Shown here: one piece after another, positions 15,470-27,614 of the stretch
How positions within the stretch are numbered: position 1 is the stretch's first letter
How the letters are laid out: every line of letters starts with the position of its first letter
Origin: an uncultured Psychroserpens sp.
GTDB lineage: Bacteria; Bacteroidota; Bacteroidia; Flavobacteriales; Flavobacteriaceae
DNA: 64,000 nt
NCBI RefSeq assembly: GCF_947492715.1
Contig: NZ_CANLNS010000001.1
Location: forward strand, 682,001 to 746,000
Reading direction: 5' to 3'
Notes under the pieces: model-generated
Databases searched by the model: none
The model's input: only the letters and a program-made list of their open reading frames with translations
What the model was told of the DNA's origin: nothing
Position numbers and translations under genes: made by a program

Positions 15470-17782
15470 TTAACGTTTCAAGGTAAAGTGCCCAGAATAT
15501 CGTTTCCCGTTTTGTCTTTCAAGTACAAACCAATAATCACTGCTTAACATTTTCGTCCCATTAAAAGTGCCATCCCAGCCAATGTCAGTAGCACTTAGCT
15601 CTTTTAAGAGTTTACCATATCGATTAAAAATAAATATCTTATTTATTGGCTCTCTAAATCCATTAATAATTTGCCAAGTATCATGATACCCATCCCCATT
15701 TGGTGTGAAATATTTTTGATATCCTAAGAGATAGACTGATTCTGACACTATTCCACAACCTCGTTTATCCCTTACATAAACAGTATAGTCATATGCGCTA
15801 AGATTGGTAAACGTATTAGAGTCCTGAAAAACAAATCCATTTATAGAATATTCGTAATCTCCATTACCTTCAACATTAACGATAATTGCATTCGTTCCGT
15901 TTGTTAAATCTATTGTTTCTATTTCTGTTATGGTTGCTTCATTAGAGGCAATGACTGTTACAGTTTTCATTGTATTGCAAATAACATCTCCATAATTATT
16001 TGAAACAGTTACCGTGTAGTTACCTGGAGCATCTACTATAATTGATGAGCTTATTTCTCCCGTTGACCACAAATAGCTATCATATCCATCATCTGCAATA
16101 ATTTCTACACTACCATCTTCGCACAAATACCACGTGTCTGCCATTGATAAAGAAGAAAAATCACCCACTTCGTTGACTTGAAACGATGTCGTATCATAGC
16201 AATATGGAAAACCTGTAAGTTCTAATCTAGCGTATATAATTTGCGGATTTGAAGTGTTTACAAAACTAGTGCCAATAGGATTGGTATTATTGTCAGCCTC
16301 AATTTGTGATAAGTGATATGTAAGGGTAGTTGCGGTTGGTGACTGTCCGTTTAGAATAGATGTATTTTGAATACTTAGATCAATGTCTTGGCCATAGCAA
16401 ACATATAAATCCTCTGCGTGATGTGCTACAGGAGTATCATATATGATGACGGTTTGGTATAACGATAAAGTTTGAGTACCATTAATTAGGTTAACGGAAA
16501 CTTCGTAAGTTCCTGGTGCAGAAAAAACATGCGAAGGCGTCACATCTGTTGATATATTATTAGCACCTGAGGCTGGGTCATCAAAGTTCCAAATAATGGT
16601 GTCAAACGCTCTATTATTTGTTAAAGAAAACTGCGTACTTGAACCAAAACAAGCTGGGTCAAATCGAATACGATCTAAAAAAAATGTTGGTACAAAATTA
16701 GGGAGTCCTTCCTTACAGATTGCTCCATTTAAATATAAATGATCACTTATGAAATTAGCACCTATTCCACCTAAATTATTTGGATATTCTATAACTGAAA
16801 GATATGGACTATCTCTATTGGCGATATAGATTTTACCATCTGGAGCCAATTGAGCACCAAAATACATGAATTGATCTGTATTAAGTTGAAACTTAGAGCT
16901 AATAATACCAGATGTAGGCTGCGCTTGTAAATTGTACTGATATATAAAGCTATTTGCTACGGAGTATAGTACCTTACTATTTGGAGAAAACTCAACGCCA
17001 CTATAAATGTCGTCACTATCTAATGTAATAGGGTTAGAAACCGCTCCTGTTGAGGCATCAAAATCAAATAACTGAAGTGCTAAATGCACACTACCTATTG
17101 CCAGTTTAGTACCATCAGGAGAGATTTTCATTGATCCTTGAAAAGCATTAGAATGATCATTTGCTCCAATATTTGCTCCACCCGGACTGATTACAGCAGT
17201 GTGATTTACTCCTGCTGCCGACACATTATAACTTATAAACTCATTAGCATCCCATTTATGACTCACTATCCAATATTCATTAGACGTTGAACTTTTAGTG
17301 GCTGTAATCATTTCTGGGGTTGGGCTATGTAAAAAAATATTTTTTGCTGATGTTACGCCACCAAGTCCATCATCTAGTGTCATATTAACTTCAGAGTACT
17401 GCAGGCCATTAGGTTCAGTTTCATGATCGATGGTAAAAATATAATAGATATTTGTGTCTTGTGGGTTAGGTACTATAATAGCCGATTGAAAACTACTTAA
17501 ACCACCTTTTAAACCTTCTCCATTAAACATTATGTCGTGTGCTCTATTCCACACTGTAATACCATCTGTATAAAACAACAAATTACCCTCAAAATCAGAC
17601 ATCACTGCACTACCTTCTCGAGCATTCATTTGGCTATTCGATAAAATAACTGGACTTCCATTATTAAAATCTAGTCCTGCATATTTACCAAAATACCAAA
17701 TATTCGCTTCATTCTGAGAACACACCAAAGAAGAAAAAAGCACGAAAATAAGAGGCACTACTTTTTTAAAAAGAAGCTCCAT
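15470..17782 (-). CDS. T9SS type B sorting-domain surface protein with PKD domain
   Basis: The call starts at MELLFKKVVPLIFVLFSSLV, a good signal peptide; an ATG 42 bases upstream (17824) would add a charged leader and is unlikely. The mature protein begins with a beta-propeller-like region (NIWYFGKYAGLDF, then repeated strand segments to about residue 340). A PKD-like domain follows (IIWNFDDPASGAN...VFSAPGTYEVSVNLI, about 390-460), then immunoglobulin-like segments. The C-terminus is the type B gliding-motility-associated sorting domain (KYFTPNGDGYHDTWQI and IFIFNRYGKLLKEL). It should cross the outer membrane by the type IX system and stay on or leave the surface. Ligand or function unknown. 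Confidence 0.92.
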   Translation of the reverse strand: MELLFKKVVPLIFVLFSSLVCSQNEANIWYFGKYAGLDFNNGSPVILSNSQMNAREGSAVMSDFEGNLLFYTDGITVWNRAHDIMFNGEGLKGGLSSFQSAIIVPNPQDTNIYYIFTIDHETEPNGLQYSEVNMTLDDGLGGVTSAKNIFLHSPTPEMITATKSSTSNEYWIVSHKWDANEFISYNVSAAGVNHTAVISPGGANIGANDHSNAFQGSMKISPDGTKLAIGSVHLALQLFDFDASTGAVSNPITLDSDDIYSGVEFSPNSKVLYSVANSFIYQYNLQAQPTSGIISSKFQLNTDQFMYFGAQLAPDGKIYIANRDSPYLSVIEYPNNLGGIGANFISDHLYLNGAICKEGLPNFVPTFFLDRIRFDPACFGSSTQFSLTNNRAFDTIIWNFDDPASGANNISTDVTPSHVFSAPGTYEVSVNLINGTQTLSLYQTVIIYDTPVAHHAEDLYVCYGQDIDLSIQNTSILNGQSPTATTLTYHLSQIEADNNTNPIGTSFVNTSNPQIIYARLELTGFPYCYDTTSFQVNEVGDFSSLSMADTWYLCEDGSVEIIADDGYDSYLWSTGEISSSIIVDAPGNYTVTVSNNYGDVICNTMKTVTVIASNEATITEIETIDLTNGTNAIIVNVEGNGDYEYSINGFVFQDSNTFTNLSAYDYTVYVRDKRGCGIVSESVYLLGYQKYFTPNGDGYHDTWQIINGFREPINKIFIFNRYGKLLKELSATDIGWDGTFNGTKMLSSDYWFVLERQNGKRYSGHFTLKR

Positions 17783-18016
17783 CTTTCTTTTCTTTAACCT
17801 ACATTCAGATAATAAAAATGACATAATTAAACAACCATACTTTAGAAAAATACAACGAAAACCGTTAATATTATAAGCATTACACTTACTAGACTCTTGC
17901 TTTGTAAAAAGGTTGCGTGTATATAATATTTTTTAGAAGAAGTATTTCAATTTGTTTTGATGACACCTCATTAGAATCTTTCTCAAGAACTCAAACTTCC
18001 AGTGATTTCAAGGGGC

Positions 18017-18631
18017 TCAAGATTTAAAAGCGCGTTTATTAAAGAAAATTAATATCCCAATACCTGTACTAATGGCCATATCTGCAATATTAAAAACTGG
18101 GTCAAAAAAGGTAAAATATTGCCCTCCATAAAACGGAATCCAATCTGGTAATACACCACTCCACATAGGAAAGTGAAGCATATCTACCACATGACCATGA
18201 AATAAAGAGTCATAACCCTGTTCTGGCATAAAAGTAGCAATTTGACCGTGACTGGAATCAAAAATCACACCGTAGAATACAGAGTCAATAATATTCCCTA
18301 ATGCGCCAGCCAGAATAAGAGCAATAGCAAAAATCAAAATTCTGGAGTTCTTATTCATTATAGATTTTTTGAGCCAATACCCTATTCCGATAACGGCTAA
18401 AATTCTAAAAACAGTCAAACAAACTTTTGCCGTTCTATCAGAAATTGAAGGAATAAAATCGCTAATTTTTGTTCCCCAAGCCATACCTTCATTCTCTACA
18501 AATGCAATTTGAAACCAGCTAAATATTTCTAATTTATCATTGAGTGCAAAATGTGTTTTAATATAGAATTTACTTATCTGGTCAATAAGTAAAATAATTA
18601 CGATAAGTAAAGTGGCTTTTTTTAAAGACAT
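18017..18631 (-). CDS. lspA: Lipoprotein signal peptidase
   Basis: A 204-residue inner-membrane aspartyl protease (signal peptidase II) that removes signal peptides from diacylated prolipoproteins. Four membrane helices are apparent. The two catalytic aspartates sit in GALGNIIDSVFYG and FNIADMAISTG, and the N-terminal helix begins ATLLIVIILLIDQISKFYIK. It is longer than the roughly 165 residues of E. coli LspA because of an extended periplasmic loop (about 128-165), common in Bacteroidota. A TATTTTTG box precedes it. Confidence 0.96.
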   Translation of the reverse strand: MSLKKATLLIVIILLIDQISKFYIKTHFALNDKLEIFSWFQIAFVENEGMAWGTKISDFIPSISDRTAKVCLTVFRILAVIGIGYWLKKSIMNKNSRILIFAIALILAGALGNIIDSVFYGVIFDSSHGQIATFMPEQGYDSLFHGHVVDMLHFPMWSGVLPDWIPFYGGQYFTFFDPVFNIADMAISTGIGILIFFNKRAFKS

Positions 18632-18650
18632 TGCTTAGGTTTAGGCATCA

Positions 18651-18658
18651 CAAAAATA
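18651..18658 (-). promoter_or_regulatory. Candidate -7 element TATTTTTG for lspA
   Basis: The complement gives an exact TAnnTTTG match 19 bases before the lspA start codon, just downstream of the terminator of the preceding gene, so lspA is probably transcribed on its own. Confidence 0.5.
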
Positions 18659-18704
18659 GTATTATTATTGTTAACGTTAATGAGGCCATACAATTGTTAT
18701 ATAT

Positions 18705-18732
18705 AAAAAAACGCCTCGAATGAGACGTTTTA
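18705..18732 (-). terminator. Intrinsic terminator after the DksA-like gene
   Basis: On the complement, AAACGTCTC and GAGGCGTTT (one G-T pair) flank a four-base loop and are followed by a run of T. It lies 18 bases after the stop codon. Confidence 0.8.
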
Positions 18733-18749
18733 TTTATAGTTTATGCTAT

Positions 18750-19127
18750 TTATTTTTGCATATTCTTAGCTTCAATGCTCAACGTAGCATGCGGTACTAA
18801 TTCTAAACGTTTTTTGTTTATTAGCTTCCCTGTTACACGACAAATACCATAGGTTTTATTTTCAATACGAATTAGCGCATTTTTTAAATCGCGAATAAAT
18901 TTTTCTTGTCTAATTGCCAACTGGGAATTTGACTCCTTGCTCATAACAGCACTACCTTCGTCAAACGCCTTAAAGGTTGGTGATGTATCATCAGTACCAT
19001 TATTATGATCGTTCATATAGGCACTTTTAATCAATTCTAAATCATGTTGCGCCTTATCTATTTTTTCTTGAATAAGTCCTTTGAACTCGTTTAAATCCTT
19101 ATCTGAATATCTTATTTTATCAGGCAT
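18750..19127 (-). CDS. TraR/DksA-family protein with degenerate zinc finger
   Basis: A 125-residue protein with an N-terminal coiled coil (about residues 8-92, with the acidic-tip-like region around 41-60) and a C-terminal DksA-like finger fold. In the finger, YGICRVTGKLINKKRLELVP keeps the fold-defining residues, but only one of four expected zinc cysteines remains (C96). The others are replaced by T99 and by Thr/Ser/Ala around 115-120. Family members bind the secondary channel of RNA polymerase. Similar Cys-poor forms are common in Bacteroidota, so this is probably functional. It starts 5 bases after ileS and is likely co-transcribed. Confidence 0.85.
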   Translation of the reverse strand: MPDKIRYSDKDLNEFKGLIQEKIDKAQHDLELIKSAYMNDHNNGTDDTSPTFKAFDEGSAVMSKESNSQLAIRQEKFIRDLKNALIRIENKTYGICRVTGKLINKKRLELVPHATLSIEAKNMQK

Positions 19128-19132
19128 AATTT

Positions 19133-22100
19133 CTACATTTTTTTAATAAACAATTTGGTATTTACATCATCGAAAGCAATTTCTATACCATTATTTAAGT
19201 CATCTAAAATCTCTAATTTTTCGGTTAAAGTTTCGGTTTTTATATACTCTAAATTTGTGTTTATTGCGTTAATAATTTGTTCGTCTTTTTTAAACTGTAC
19301 TGCAATTCTATCAGTGAGTTCAAAACCAGAATCTTTTCTTAAATTTTGAATTCTATTGACTAGCTCTCTAGCAATACCTTCTTTTTTCAAATCTTCTGTT
19401 AGAGTAACGTCTAAGGCTACGGTTAATGCTCCTGAACTTGCCACAAGCCATCCTTCTATATCCTTAGAGGTAATCTCAACATCAGATTGTTCTAAAGTAA
19501 TGTTTTTTCCATTAACTTCAACGTTTAAAACGCCGTTTTGCTCGATTTTTTTGATATCTTCTGCTGTAAATTCGTTAACTACCTGAGCAACAGCCTTCAT
19601 ATCCTGACCAAAACGAGGTCCTAAAACTTTAAAGTTTGGCTTAATCTGTTTCACTAATATATCTGAAGCATCTTCTAAAACCTCAACGTCTTTAACATTA
19701 ACTTCAGACTTGATTAAATCTGAAACCGCTAAAATTTCATCCTTTTGAGTTTGACTGTCAATAGGAATCATAATTTTCTGTAACGGCTGTCTTACTTTTA
19801 TCTTTTCTTTAGCTCTTAACGACAATACAAGAGAAGAAATTGTTTGAGCACTTTCCATTTTACGTTCTAGGCTCTTATCAACATAAGACGCATCGTATTT
19901 TGGAAATTCTGCTAAATGCACACTCTCGAATGTCTCTTTTTGTGTTACCGAATTAAGATCCATATATAAACGATCCATAAAGAAAGGTGCTATTGGCGCT
20001 CCCAACTTTGCAATGGTCTCCATACATGTATATAATGTTTGATATGCCGAAATTTTATCAGATTGATAATCGCCTTTCCAGAAACGTCTTCTACTTAAAC
20101 GCACATACCAATTACTTAAGTAATCTTGTGTAAAATCTGAAATAGCTCTTGCTGCTTTAGTTGGCTCATACTCGGCATAATAATCGTCTACCTTCTGAAT
20201 CAATGTATGTAACTCTGATAAAATCCAACGATCAATTTCAGGTCTTTCTGCCAATGGAATATCGGCTTCACTATAGGTGAATTTATCTAAATTTGTATAT
20301 AATGTAAAGAACGAATATGTGTTATAAAGGGTTCCAAAAAACTTACGTCTCACTTCTTCGATACCATCCAAATCAAACTTTAAATTATCCCATGGATTGG
20401 CATTCATAATCATATACCAACGTGTTGCATCGGCACCATATTTACCTAGGGTTTCAAAAGGATCGGTTGCATTACCAAGTCGTTTAGACATTTTTTGTCC
20501 GTTCTTATCTAATACCAATCCGTTAGACACCACATTTTTATACGCTACAGAATCGAATACCATCGTTCCAATAGCGTGTAATGTATAGAACCATCCTCTT
20601 GTTTGATCGACACCTTCGGCGATAAAATCTGCAGGAAATGACTTATTATCGTCAATGAGTTCCTTATTTTCAAAAGGATAGTGCCATTGCGCATAAGGCA
20701 TTGACCCAGAATCAAACCATACATCAATTAAATCACTTTCTCTGGTCATAGGTTGACCGCTTTCAGAAACTAAAATAATCTCATCAACAATATTTTTATG
20801 TAGATCAATATGAGCATAGTTCTCTTCGGAAAAATCACCAACTTTAAAATCTTCGAAGATATCTTTTGAAAGTACCCCAGCTTGAACGGCTTTTGCCATT
20901 TCAGATTTTAACTCTGCAACAGAGCCAATGCATAATTCTTCTTTACCATCTTCGGTTCTCCAAATTGGCAACGGAATTCCCCAATATCTAGATCGTGATA
21001 AATTCCAGTCGTTTGCATTTGCTAACCAGTTTCCAAAACGCCCTTCACCAGTTGATTTAGGTTTCCAATTAATGGTTTTGTTCAACTCATGCATTCTATC
21101 TTTTACATCTGTCACTTTGATAAACCAAGAGTCTAACGGATAGTATAAAATAGGTTTATCAGTACGCCAACAATTTGGATAACTGTGTTTATATTTTTCA
21201 ACCTTAAAGGCTTTATTCTCTTCTTTTAATTTAATAGCAAGTTCTACATCAACTGAGCGCTCTGGCGCTTCACCATCACTGTAATATTCGCTCTTTACAT
21301 ATTTACCAGCAAACTCATCTAATTCTGGTCTAAAACGACCTTGTAAGTCTACTAAAGGCACTAAATTACCATTCTCGTCTTTTACTAATAATGGTGGTAC
21401 TTCTGGTGTAGCTTGCTTCGCAACAAGGGCATCATCGGCTCCAAAAGTTGGTGCTGTGTGTACAATTCCTGTACCATCTTCGGTCGTTACAAAATCTCCT
21501 GAAATCACTCTAAAGGCATTTTCCGGATTGTCATTAGGAAGTGCGTACGGTAATAATTGCTCGTAAGTAATTCCAACTAAATCTGTGCCTTTAAATTCTT
21601 TCACAACATAATATGGAATCTTCTTATCACCCGAATTATAGGCTAATAAATCTGCCTTGTTTTCTACCAAATTGAACTTTCCAGAGAATTGATAGTTAAC
21701 CAATTTCTTAGCTAAAATCACATTCATTGGCTGAAATGTATACTGATTATAGGTTTCAACCAACACATAATCAATCTTTGGTCCAACCGTTAAAGCTGTA
21801 TTACTAGGTAATGTCCAAGGTGTCGTCGTCCAAGCTAAGAAATAGATATCACCTTCATCTTGTAAAAAGTCAGGCAACGTATTTGCATTTGCTTTAAACT
21901 GAGCAACTACAGTTGTATCAGTCACATCCTGATATGTTCCAGGTTGATTAAGCTCATGCGAACTTAATCCTGTACCTGCTTTTGGCGAGTACGGTTGTAT
22001 GGTATAGCCTTTGTAGAGTAAACTCTTATCGTAGATTTGCTTTAATAACCACCAAACACTTTCCATATATTTTGGGTCATAAGTAATATACGGATCGTCC

Positions 22101-22537
22101 ATATTTACCCAATAGCCCATTTTTTGGGTGAGGTCATTCCATACGTCTGTATAGCGCATTACAGCTTTACGACAAGCGGCATTATAATCTTCAACAGAAA
22201 TGGTTTTACCAATATCTTCTTTGGTAATTCCGAGTTCTTTTTCTACACCAAGTTCTATAGGTAAGCCATGAGTATCCCAGCCCGCCTTACGCTTCACTTG
22301 GTAACCTTTCATGGTTTTATATCGCGGAAAAATATCCTTGATAGCACGTGCTAAAACGTGGTGTACTCCAGGCAATCCGTTGGCAGACGGAGGCCCTTCA
22401 AAAAAGACAAATGGTGTATTGCCTTCTCTAGTAGAGATACTTTTTTCAAAGATGTCATTCTCTTGCCAATAGTTGAGGATGTCTTCTGCAACTTTTGGTA
22501 AGTCAAGTCCTTTATATTCAGGAAAGTTAGCGCTCAT
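19133..22537 (-). CDS. ileS: Isoleucyl-tRNA synthetase, type 2, with swapped GXHH signature
   Basis: A 1134-residue class I synthetase that charges tRNA-Ile. It is the long, eukaryote-like IleRS2 type (E. coli IleRS is about 940). The Rossmann active site, the CP1 editing domain (FLAWTTTPWTLPSNTAL, about 235-251) and the KMSKS loop (NGQKMSKRLGN) are all present. The first signature normally reads HXGH; here NGLPGVHHVLA gives GVHH at residues 57-60, a swap of positions 1 and 3. The C-terminal part (about 930-1134) is the extended anticodon-binding region. The downstream DksA-like gene lies 5 bases away. Confidence 0.97.
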   Translation of the reverse strand: MSANFPEYKGLDLPKVAEDILNYWQENDIFEKSISTREGNTPFVFFEGPPSANGLPGVHHVLARAIKDIFPRYKTMKGYQVKRKAGWDTHGLPIELGVEKELGITKEDIGKTISVEDYNAACRKAVMRYTDVWNDLTQKMGYWVNMDDPYITYDPKYMESVWWLLKQIYDKSLLYKGYTIQPYSPKAGTGLSSHELNQPGTYQDVTDTTVVAQFKANANTLPDFLQDEGDIYFLAWTTTPWTLPSNTALTVGPKIDYVLVETYNQYTFQPMNVILAKKLVNYQFSGKFNLVENKADLLAYNSGDKKIPYYVVKEFKGTDLVGITYEQLLPYALPNDNPENAFRVISGDFVTTEDGTGIVHTAPTFGADDALVAKQATPEVPPLLVKDENGNLVPLVDLQGRFRPELDEFAGKYVKSEYYSDGEAPERSVDVELAIKLKEENKAFKVEKYKHSYPNCWRTDKPILYYPLDSWFIKVTDVKDRMHELNKTINWKPKSTGEGRFGNWLANANDWNLSRSRYWGIPLPIWRTEDGKEELCIGSVAELKSEMAKAVQAGVLSKDIFEDFKVGDFSEENYAHIDLHKNIVDEIILVSESGQPMTRESDLIDVWFDSGSMPYAQWHYPFENKELIDDNKSFPADFIAEGVDQTRGWFYTLHAIGTMVFDSVAYKNVVSNGLVLDKNGQKMSKRLGNATDPFETLGKYGADATRWYMIMNANPWDNLKFDLDGIEEVRRKFFGTLYNTYSFFTLYTNLDKFTYSEADIPLAERPEIDRWILSELHTLIQKVDDYYAEYEPTKAARAISDFTQDYLSNWYVRLSRRRFWKGDYQSDKISAYQTLYTCMETIAKLGAPIAPFFMDRLYMDLNSVTQKETFESVHLAEFPKYDASYVDKSLERKMESAQTISSLVLSLRAKEKIKVRQPLQKIMIPIDSQTQKDEILAVSDLIKSEVNVKDVEVLEDASDILVKQIKPNFKVLGPRFGQDMKAVAQVVNEFTAEDIKKIEQNGVLNVEVNGKNITLEQSDVEITSKDIEGWLVASSGALTVALDVTLTEDLKKEGIARELVNRIQNLRKDSGFELTDRIAVQFKKDEQIINAINTNLEYIKTETLTEKLEILDDLNNGIEIAFDDVNTKLFIKKM

Positions 22538-22654: not shown

Positions 22655-22831
22655 ATGCATTCTATAAAATTCAACTAAAAAAACACCACCTTAAAAATAA
22701 TTAATAATGCTATTAAGGATAAGACTCTTTTAGTGTTTTTCATTGGAAATACATACGAAATTCGTGTTCAGTATTTAGACACTAAAGTTTTAAAAAGTCA
22801 CATCCCTATTGGAGTAAATTTAGATTTATAG
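22655..22831 (+). pseudogene. Possible small ORF interrupted by one in-frame stop
   Basis: The 288-base gap between ileS and the next gene holds a 7-bp hairpin (ATAAGAT at 22634-22640, ATCTTAT at 22644-22650). After it, an ATG opens a frame reading MHSIKFN, a TAA at 22676-22678, then 50 further codons including LLVFFIGNTYEIRVQYLDTK. The part after the stop looks protein-like but has no ATG; a GTG near 22736 could start 33 residues. One base change (TAA from CAA) would join the pieces. No family was recognised. This may equally be chance. Confidence 0.2.
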
Positions 22832-23413
22832 CATCTCCAAAGTTTTAGTATATTCATCTATAAGCATATTTTCATAACTACCTAATTCTTGCCGTATTGA
22901 CCACATCAAACGCAAGGCATCTGAATATTTTGCGGTTGAATTAAAATCAAAAAACTTACTTAAAAACGTATCTCTTGTTTTATTCAATCCTTGTTGAGCT
23001 GCATACGTTCTAGATAATTGCGTCGCGACAGCAACATCCATACTAGACAGCATATTGCTAAATTTTGCCATTTCGAACATGGCATTAGATAATTCGCCAC
23101 TTCCTACACCTCTCCAATTAGGAAATCGTTCATTAAACTCTCTATCAAATAAATTCTCATTAAGTAAATCATTAGTTAGTAAAGGCTGTAAACTGTCAAG
23201 AGATTTATTAAACTTAATTCTGTTTTTCTTTGCGTTTTTTACAATTTCTAAATTAGATTTTATTTCTAATTTTATATTTTTTAAAACCTCTTTATGATTA
23301 TTCTCTAGATTTTTTGAAGCGTTCCACTCTGAAGCTAAAATACCAAGGAAGACACCAAGCACTACTAAAGTGAGTTGAATAATATATTCTGAAATTTTAT
23401 GTTTCTTTTTCAT
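22826..23413 (-). CDS. DUF6090-like single-pass membrane protein
   Basis: A 195-residue protein with a basic N-terminus (MKKKHKISEY) and one membrane helix (IIQLTLVVLGVFLGILASEW), followed by a long helical, charged region (about 35-90) and further helices. The opening pattern, a basic leader then a helix ending in EW with a following N-rich segment, matches small Bacteroidota proteins often listed as DUF6090. Function is unknown. It stands alone between ileS and radA, all on the same strand. I could not identify a promoter box. Confidence 0.65.
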   Translation of the reverse strand: MKKKHKISEYIIQLTLVVLGVFLGILASEWNASKNLENNHKEVLKNIKLEIKSNLEIVKNAKKNRIKFNKSLDSLQPLLTNDLLNENLFDREFNERFPNWRGVGSGELSNAMFEMAKFSNMLSSMDVAVATQLSRTYAAQQGLNKTRDTFLSKFFDFNSTAKYSDALRLMWSIRQELGSYENMLIDEYTKTLEML

Positions 23414-25068: not shown

Positions 25069-25221
25069 TTAATTGATATCTTTAAACCAACTTGCTAGAG
25101 CCATTATTTTTAAAGCAATCACTTTTGAAGGCATATTTGAAAATAAAAAGTGTTTTATTTTACGATATAACCACTCAAAAAAATAGTCTGTCGAGTATAT
25201 ACTTATTTTAGTTTTCTTCAT
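25069..25221 (-). CDS. Possible small basic protein (50 aa)
   Basis: An open frame starting MKKTKISIYSTDYFFEWLYR overlaps the last 14 bases of the upstream esterase-like gene and fills the 200-base gap before radA. It is lysine-rich with aromatic and hydrophobic stretches (FEWLYRKIKHFLF, VIALKIMALASWF), so it could be an amphipathic or membrane-associated peptide. AGAGGA before the ATG resembles a ribosome site but is part of the upstream acidic coding tail. No family was recognised, and chance cannot be excluded. Confidence 0.25.
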   Translation of the reverse strand: MKKTKISIYSTDYFFEWLYRKIKHFLFSNMPSKVIALKIMALASWFKDIN

Positions 25222-26386
25222 CGTCCTCTTCTGTTTCTGTATCGTCATCAACCACTTTTAATCCTTCAACATGAGACATGATAAACGCTCTATCAATATG
25301 TGCCATATCTTCTAAAGTAAGGGCAGATTCGTACAATTTTAGTGCTTTTTTTGTTTTCCCCAATTTCTCGGCGTATAAAGCCATATGGTAAGTACCAAAT
25401 GATGAATTCGGGTTTAGTTTATTAGCAAGTTTTCCAATTTTATAAACTGATTCGAGATCATCGCGTTCTTCAGCTGCTATTATAAGCTGTTGCAGTTCTT
25501 CTTCTGAAATAGGTTTATAAATGCCAAACAAATCATCGATACGTTTATATCTATCTACAATGTAATCGTCTAGTGTTCCATCATATGGCATTACTTTTTC
25601 TTTGATTTCTTTATCATCAAGTGGTTTATATAATTCGAAAATTCTATCCATTGCTTTTGACAACGCCCCAGTCACCAATTGATAATGAGAATCACCTTTA
25701 AGTTCATCAAAATAGTAGGTTAATTTTTGATTATCAATAGTTTTTAAACTTTGATCAGTACTTCTAACGATATCTCTAATGGATTTAATATCCCTATCAG
25801 ATGTGGCCATATAATAAAAGATATCATCGTCCAACCATTCTAATCGCGTAGCAACATTTTGGCTCATAGTACCTTTAAAATCTGGGCTTAAATTAATGTA
25901 TGCCTGAAACACAGGTTCTTCATGGAATAAAAATGAATTGATAAAATTCCCCATGAGGTTATGCCCTACTGCAACTTTAAACTTACTGGTATTGTAATTA
26001 GCATCGATATAAGGGATTAACTCTTGTTCAATAAACTTATAAAATCGATCTCCAGACTCAAATGGAAGTCCAGATACCTCATCAAAATAACTATCATAAA
26101 AGCGTTCTTTGCCTTGAACGATACCAACAACAATAGATTCTGGCATTTCATCAAAATGTGTTTGAAAACTTACTTGTCCACATACAGGTTCAAATAAATA
26201 TTCTCCATCAAACACAATAATAACAGGGTGTTTTAATTCTGATTCAGGATCATAACTATCGGGAAGTTTGATTTTTAAATCTCTAGAAGAGTTTAATTTT
26301 CTTGATTCAAATTTCTCATAAACGATTTGTGCAGATAATTGGACACAAAAACATAAAGAGAAGACAAAAATTAAGGCATTTTTCAT
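25208..26386 (-). CDS. Exported esterase-fold protein lacking the catalytic serine, with C-terminal TPR
   Basis: A 392-residue protein with a signal peptide (MKNALIFVFSLCFCVQLSAQ). Residues about 22-260 match the alpha/beta-hydrolase-fold putative esterase family (LPDSYDPESELKHPVIIVFD, a conserved opening). The nucleophile elbow, normally GHSxGG, reads VGHNLMGN, with Asn at residue 143. The late histidine is kept (GDSHYQL). A C-terminal helical part (about 295-375) resembles one or two tetratricopeptide repeats and ends in an acidic tail (ETEEDDEEN). It is a tandem paralogue of the upstream gene, which has also lost the serine. Probably a binding or scaffold protein rather than an esterase; function unknown. 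Confidence 0.8.
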   Translation of the reverse strand: MKNALIFVFSLCFCVQLSAQIVYEKFESRKLNSSRDLKIKLPDSYDPESELKHPVIIVFDGEYLFEPVCGQVSFQTHFDEMPESIVVGIVQGKERFYDSYFDEVSGLPFESGDRFYKFIEQELIPYIDANYNTSKFKVAVGHNLMGNFINSFLFHEEPVFQAYINLSPDFKGTMSQNVATRLEWLDDDIFYYMATSDRDIKSIRDIVRSTDQSLKTIDNQKLTYYFDELKGDSHYQLVTGALSKAMDRIFELYKPLDDKEIKEKVMPYDGTLDDYIVDRYKRIDDLFGIYKPISEEELQQLIIAAEERDDLESVYKIGKLANKLNPNSSFGTYHMALYAEKLGKTKKALKLYESALTLEDMAHIDRAFIMSHVEGLKVVDDDTETEEDDEEN

Positions 26387-26468: not shown

Positions 26469-27614
26469 TCAATTTTGGTCTTGAATGTCATAGATTAAAT
26501 CTAGCAACATATCCTTAGAAATAAATTCAGATTCTTCCAGCAATAAACCAGACTGGTAACTTTGCAGTGCTTTTTTTGTATTACCATTCATATCATGATA
26601 TTGCCCAGCATAATAGGCACTAATCATGGATTCTGGATATTCTTTACGAGCCAATTTTGATAAATTCTTAAGCGCTTCAACGTCATTTTTCTTCTTGGCC
26701 GCAGCAAGTACAGCTCTTAAATCATTTTCTACAACTTTCTTCTCAAACCCGTAGAAAAATTCAATATCCTCATACTTTTTCATGAGGTAATCGTAAGGAC
26801 TTCCTTCATAAGTGAGCATTTTTTCTTTGTATTCTTTCCTATTAATAGGCTTATACAATCCAAAAATCTCATTGATAGCTTTAGGGATACCCAAACCAAC
26901 AAGTGAATAATGATCTGCATCTGTGAAGTCGTCAAATCTATAATGCAATTTATCGTTTTCAATTCCAGCCAAAGCTGTATTGAATTCTAAAATATCTTCT
27001 CTAAGGCTTTTAACATCGTTATCGGCAGTTGCTAAATAATAGAAGGTATCTTCTGTGGTTGTTGACAGTTTTTCTTGTAAACGAGTAGCCATATCTGGCG
27101 CTAAGTCTGGACTAAATGCGATATATCCTCTAAACAATGGTTTATCCTTAAACAGCCAATAATTTATAAAGTTAGCACTTTGGTCATGGCCAACCATAAT
27201 TCTAAAATCCGACGTTAAATAATTATCATTGATATAAGGTATCAATTCCTGTCCTATAAACTCAAAAAACTGCGCACCTCCATCATCAGAAGGGAAACCA
27301 AATTCGTCACTATAAGATAAATCAGAATCACGTGACTTAGCTTGATTAACACCAACAACGATAGACCTTGGCATATCTCCCCAATAAGAATGATAATCTG
27401 CATTACCAATCATAGGCTCGAACAAATAATCGCCATCCAACACAACAACTAAGGGATATAAAATGTCTCCCTCGGGGTCATAATTTCTTGGTAATTGTAT
27501 TTTTATCTCTCTAGATTCTCCTAGTTTAGACGATTCAATAGTCTCATAAATGACCTGAGAAGACGCTATTTGAAAAAACAGGCCACAGAGTATAAATAGT
27601 ATAGTTTTATTCAT
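26469..27614 (-). CDS. Exported esterase-fold protein lacking the catalytic serine (tandem paralogue)
   Basis: A 381-residue paralogue of the following gene with the same plan: signal peptide (MNKTILFILCGLFFQIASSQ), esterase-fold domain (LPRNYDPEGDILYPLVVVLD), and C-terminal TPR-like helices (SAYYAGQYHDMNGNTKKALQ). The elbow reads VGHDQSANF, with Asp at residue 144 where the nucleophilic Ser should be, while the late histidine is kept (DADHYSLVG). It lies 82 bases upstream of its paralogue and 36 bases after the flippase-like gene, all on one strand. Divergence shows an old duplication with the active site lost before or in both copies. Confidence 0.8.
   Translation of the reverse strand: MNKTILFILCGLFFQIASSQVIYETIESSKLGESREIKIQLPRNYDPEGDILYPLVVVLDGDYLFEPMIGNADYHSYWGDMPRSIVVGVNQAKSRDSDLSYSDEFGFPSDDGGAQFFEFIGQELIPYINDNYLTSDFRIMVGHDQSANFINYWLFKDKPLFRGYIAFSPDLAPDMATRLQEKLSTTTEDTFYYLATADNDVKSLREDILEFNTALAGIENDKLHYRFDDFTDADHYSLVGLGIPKAINEIFGLYKPINRKEYKEKMLTYEGSPYDYLMKKYEDIEFFYGFEKKVVENDLRAVLAAAKKKNDVEALKNLSKLARKEYPESMISAYYAGQYHDMNGNTKKALQSYQSGLLLEESEFISKDMLLDLIYDIQDQN

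Follow-up and report, generated by a model that had tools for sequence, protein, structure and literature searches.

The window, the whole 64,000-nucleotide stretch of DNA analysed here, carries on its minus strand a group of three genes at 18017-22537: ileS, a DksA-like gene and lspA. In translation, the ileS reading frame runs from an ATG at 22537 to a stop at 19133 (19133..22537, minus strand) and encodes a 1134-residue type 2 isoleucyl-tRNA synthetase (IleRS), as identified by TIGR00392, Pfam and a search of solved structures. The NCBIfam ileS profile TIGR00392 scored 1001.7 bits, above its cut-off of 621.4, placing the protein within the IleRS family, and Pfam recognized tRNA-synt_1, Anticodon_1 and a C-terminal DUF5915 domain (PF19302; residues 940-1133, 19139..19720, minus strand; E 2.5e-59). 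Translation and alignment place a swapped class I signature, GVHH instead of HXGH, at residues 57-60 (22358..22369, minus strand), and the second class I signature (KMSKS loop) is translated as KMSKR at residues 682-686 (20480..20494, minus strand).

Conservation around the gene was followed in 80 loci taken from named records. They are the 80 best of 470 and come exclusively from near relatives, among which Psychroserpens ileS genes reach up to 95% identity; the window thus probably belongs to this genus or to one close by, although its own genome's records may be missing from that set. Directly downstream of ileS lies the gene for a 125-residue DksA/TraR-like protein (18750..19127, minus strand; Pfam PF01258), which adjoins ileS in all 80 loci. 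A C4 zinc finger has four cysteines; this protein has a single cysteine at the corresponding site, and the aligned stretch contains one cysteine in 80 of 80 relatives. No paper was found in a DksA search covering part of the literature. The lspA gene (18017..18631, minus strand), encoding a 204-residue signal peptidase II, matched NF011369 with 283.9 bits (cut-off 200), and LspA was found in 77 of the 80 loci, some of which have cut flanks. Between 17500 and 26000 there was no Rfam match to a T-box or other RNA leader for ileS. Upstream of ileS, a 195-residue protein (22826-23413, minus strand) had no Pfam match and was matched by tblastn in the locus of one of the 80 relatives. Elsewhere on the minus strand lie two adjoining, similar-looking proteins of 392 and 381 residues with signal-peptide-like starts (25208-26386 and 26469-27614), judged by eye to be apparently a tandem duplication, and a 784-residue protein (15470-17824) in which TIGR04131 marks a type IX secretion sorting domain.

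The signature motif and the enzyme type

An earlier note on this DNA had reported GVHH at residues 57-60 of a type 2 IleRS, and its reading proved exact within the 1134-residue frame. The codons GGA GTA CAC CAC, running from 22369 to 22358 on the minus strand, specify G, V, H and H in the context PPSANGLPGVHHVLA. A [GA]XHH motif with a hydrophobic X occurs once in the protein, at this position, and a scan of all 1134 residues returned no HXGH elsewhere. When aligned with solved structures, GVHH stands ungapped opposite the HVGH of chains 8c8u, 8c8v and 8c9d and in register with the GVHH of the top-scoring chain, 8c8w. With G first and H third in register, the protein belongs by motif to the non-canonical G/AXHH IleRS2 enzymes.

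Assignment to type 2 was likewise upheld by bit scores. The four best solved chains, 8c8w, 8c8u, 8c8v and 8c9d, which we take from the published description and their lengths to be forms of P. megaterium IleRS2, scored 789-802 bits, against 290-299 bits for 8c9f, 1ffy and 8c9e, taken as IleRS1; nine rows headed by 8c8w precede the first row taken as IleRS1. The record of 8c8w is titled only 'Isoleucine--tRNA ligase'; judging from the text of PMC10485003, this chain is probably the mutant with GVHH made in that study. P. megaterium IleRS2 (8c8u, 8c8v, 8c8w and 8c9d), the best-scoring solved relative, aligns without gaps across NGLP-[HVGH or GVHH], but its wild type carries the canonical HVGH where the window enzyme has GVHH. 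Its chains are also shorter (1032 versus 1134 residues), its second signature is KMSKS rather than KMSKR, and its His582, given in the published text as replacing Phe586 of IleRS1, aligns with a leucine in the window enzyme.

Mupirocin kinetics of published enzymes

The G/AXHH motif of some IleRS2 enzymes was described by Brkic et al. 2023 (PMC10485003), and Table 1 of that paper bears out the earlier note's association of GXHH with extreme mupirocin resistance, with motif exchanges in both directions shifting the mupirocin Ki ~175- to 823-fold. In D. radiodurans IleRS2, replacing ALHH by HVGH lowered the Ki from 6600 to 8.1 µM (823-fold), and the opposite exchange, HVGH to GVHH, raised it from 0.20 to 35 µM in T. 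thermophilus IleRS2 (175-fold) and from 1.08 to 460 µM in P. megaterium IleRS2 (about 430-fold; all PMC10485003). According to the text of the same paper, the tip of the HXGH helix is shifted in IleRS2 and a third-position histidine is tolerated without disturbing the adenine; its Discussion attributes to this histidine a clash with mupirocin. GXHH versions of IleRS1 were not found in nature, and engineered ones were inactive (PMC10485003). A mupirocin Ki of 10 mM is given for the IleRS of S. griseus (PMC4861432), which has the non-canonical motif according to PMC10485003.

The non-canonical enzymes of S. griseus and D. radiodurans share with the window IleRS both the type and the exchange of signature positions 1 and 3 at the same place, D. 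radiodurans reading ALHH where the window reads GVHH. The published kinetics are those of other IleRS2 enzymes. As far as these sources go, the Ki of a natural GXHH enzyme has been determined for S. griseus and D. radiodurans and for no member of the Bacteroidota, and the word stem Bacteroid occurs in neither main text (PMC10485003, PMC4861432). Searches of part of the literature found no mupirocin MIC for members of the Bacteroidota, nor did passages of PMC6994654, PMC5602931 and PMC10835994 give one, and they found no paper that treats the swapped motif as characteristic of the phylum.

Distribution and origin of the motif

We translated ileS in 110 loci, comprising the window's own, 29 from a sample of the phylum and the 80 from named records. 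An in-frame GVHH (72 loci) or GIHH (37 loci) was present in 109 of them, and among these 109, in which both motifs were read, the second signature was KMSKR in 106 and KMSKS in 3. The remaining locus, from a Lacinutrix himadriensis draft (L117:4001-7401), has an ileS frame break immediately before the signature motif, with PGVHH past the break; the break is likely an assembly error. GVHH or GIHH stands in the same sequence context in 79 of the 80 named-record relatives, so the window's motif is not a sequencing error, a possibility already called unlikely on account of its clean codons.

The phylum sample comprised 395 genomes, 371 of them near-complete (>=90% complete and <=5% contaminated). 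The pattern NGXP[GA]XHH occurred in 392 of the 395, so that the motif is no peculiarity of this organism; the G/AXHH pattern was present in all 371 near-complete genomes and in all 171 genera. These matches were scored mostly as per-genome counts, with placement in ileS checked for 32 genomes: all 32 matches, from outside the organism's class, lay in frame, 126-159 bases past the start of the tblastn match. As a control, the G/AXHH pattern was read backwards and, by a count made by eye, matched in about six of the 395 genomes. The forward pattern was missing from three genomes (G291, G338 and G354), which are 88, 81 and 81% complete, and no N-terminal part of ileS was found in any of them: G291 has a C-terminal ileS fragment only, and G338 and G354 have only weak ileS matches, comparable in strength to those of ValRS, LeuRS and MetRS. 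In one further genome (G176), ileS is present only as a piece at a contig edge, with no complete copy.

We also considered whether a canonical IleRS2 exists elsewhere in the phylum. The pattern NGXPHXGH matched in 15 of the 395 genomes, and inspection of all 15 neighbourhoods placed none of the matches inside an IleRS. Thirteen fall in glutaminyl-tRNA synthetase-like proteins reading RFPPEPNG[YF]PH[IL]GH, one of which was identified by NCBIfam (L168), and the other two lie in short, unrelated open frames (75 and 157 residues) lacking aminoacyl-tRNA synthetase features.

The most plausible reading of the motif is that of an old housekeeping trait shared across the phylum. It is rather probable that GXHH became fixed no later than the root of the phylum as sampled and stayed unreverted throughout the near-complete sample, which would make target-level mupirocin hyper-resistance ancestral across the phylum, in gut and marine members alike. 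A lesser but serious possibility is that something other than mupirocin maintains the motif, such as neutral inheritance or co-adaptation within the active site, with resistance as a by-product; its near-universal presence regardless of lineage fits simple inheritance, and published GXHH enzymes keep good activity (PMC10485003), yet the authors of that paper, in its text, favour antibiotic selection as the origin of the motif. Marine antibiotics of the mupirocin family, the thiomarinols, are described (PMC8159325), but a recent local adaptation to such compounds from marine competitors is highly improbable when the same motif class is found in 371/371 near-complete genomes, 171/171 genera and 79/80 named-record loci; the phylum survey contradicts a recent local swap.

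Copy number, resistance and significance

The assembly containing the window spans 4.2 Mb in 41 contigs and is 99.95% complete. Searched with tblastn, it returned the query gene at full length together with weak matches in two other frames, and TIGR00392 exceeded its cut-off in one place. Further profile matches, all below the cut-off, were in frames of 890, 952, 685 and 497 residues, the first two being ValRS and LeuRS and the last two scoring at most 37.7 bits. No second ileS, a possibility that the earlier note had raised, was found across the 41 contigs by either search. An assembly in 41 contigs could miss a small replicon, but with a single match over the cut-off and the others falling in ValRS, LeuRS and two low-scoring frames, it is very doubtful that a second, mupirocin-sensitive ileS serves as the main enzyme. 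That GVHH is an artefact, with a canonical HXGH elsewhere or a wrong frame, has a negligible probability for a protein that lacks HXGH and whose motif is in register with solved IleRS2 and conserved among relatives.

Acquired resistance is not called for either, as had been supposed. The staphylococcal enzymes MupA and MupB, acquired and mupirocin-resistant, belong to the type 2 IleRS family and show significant similarity to the window enzyme, but the latter falls far below their NCBIfam cut-offs (745.2 and 763.8 bits, against 1900 for each). Unlike them, the window ileS is chromosomal, sits beside lspA, is conserved in relatives and is not acquired.

We consider it very likely that the gene encodes, in a marine flavobacterium close to Psychroserpens, a housekeeping type 2 IleRS with a natural GVHH, that the enzyme behaves like its published counterparts, that the organism is mupirocin-resistant at the target, and that the swap goes back to an ancestor early in the history of the phylum. 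By homology with the published IleRS2 enzymes, the shifted active-site helix would accommodate the third-position histidine without displacing the adenine of ATP, and catalysis would persist; the same histidine would clash with mupirocin and raise the Ki towards the millimolar range. The organism would then be intrinsically resistant at the target, through a swap presumably inherited from that early ancestor and not gained recently. As the assembly yielded no other ileS, the enzyme presumably still activates isoleucine. By analogy with the measured enzymes, the hyper-resistance predicted for the window enzyme is well founded, and its degree is uncertain: the engineered GVHH mutants reached only 35 and 460 µM, so the background sequence matters and a millimolar Ki is not guaranteed.

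The motif finding is real but ordinary, its mechanism being already in print (PMC10485003). The window IleRS is a clean example of that mechanism, and the phylum-wide tally, which shows how widespread the motif is, may be a small addition to published work, since the searched main texts lack the stem Bacteroid. An Ornithobacterium IleRS appears under mupirocin in one genome paper (PMC10835994), and resistome surveys that flag a flavobacterial or Bacteroides ileS as acquired or notable mupirocin resistance are probably describing an ordinary housekeeping gene. Mupirocin has been used in a ppGpp assay in work on P. gingivalis, with E. faecalis as a control (PMC6994654). For bacteria carrying this enzyme, starvation for charged tRNA-Ile by mupirocin would be expected to take very high doses.
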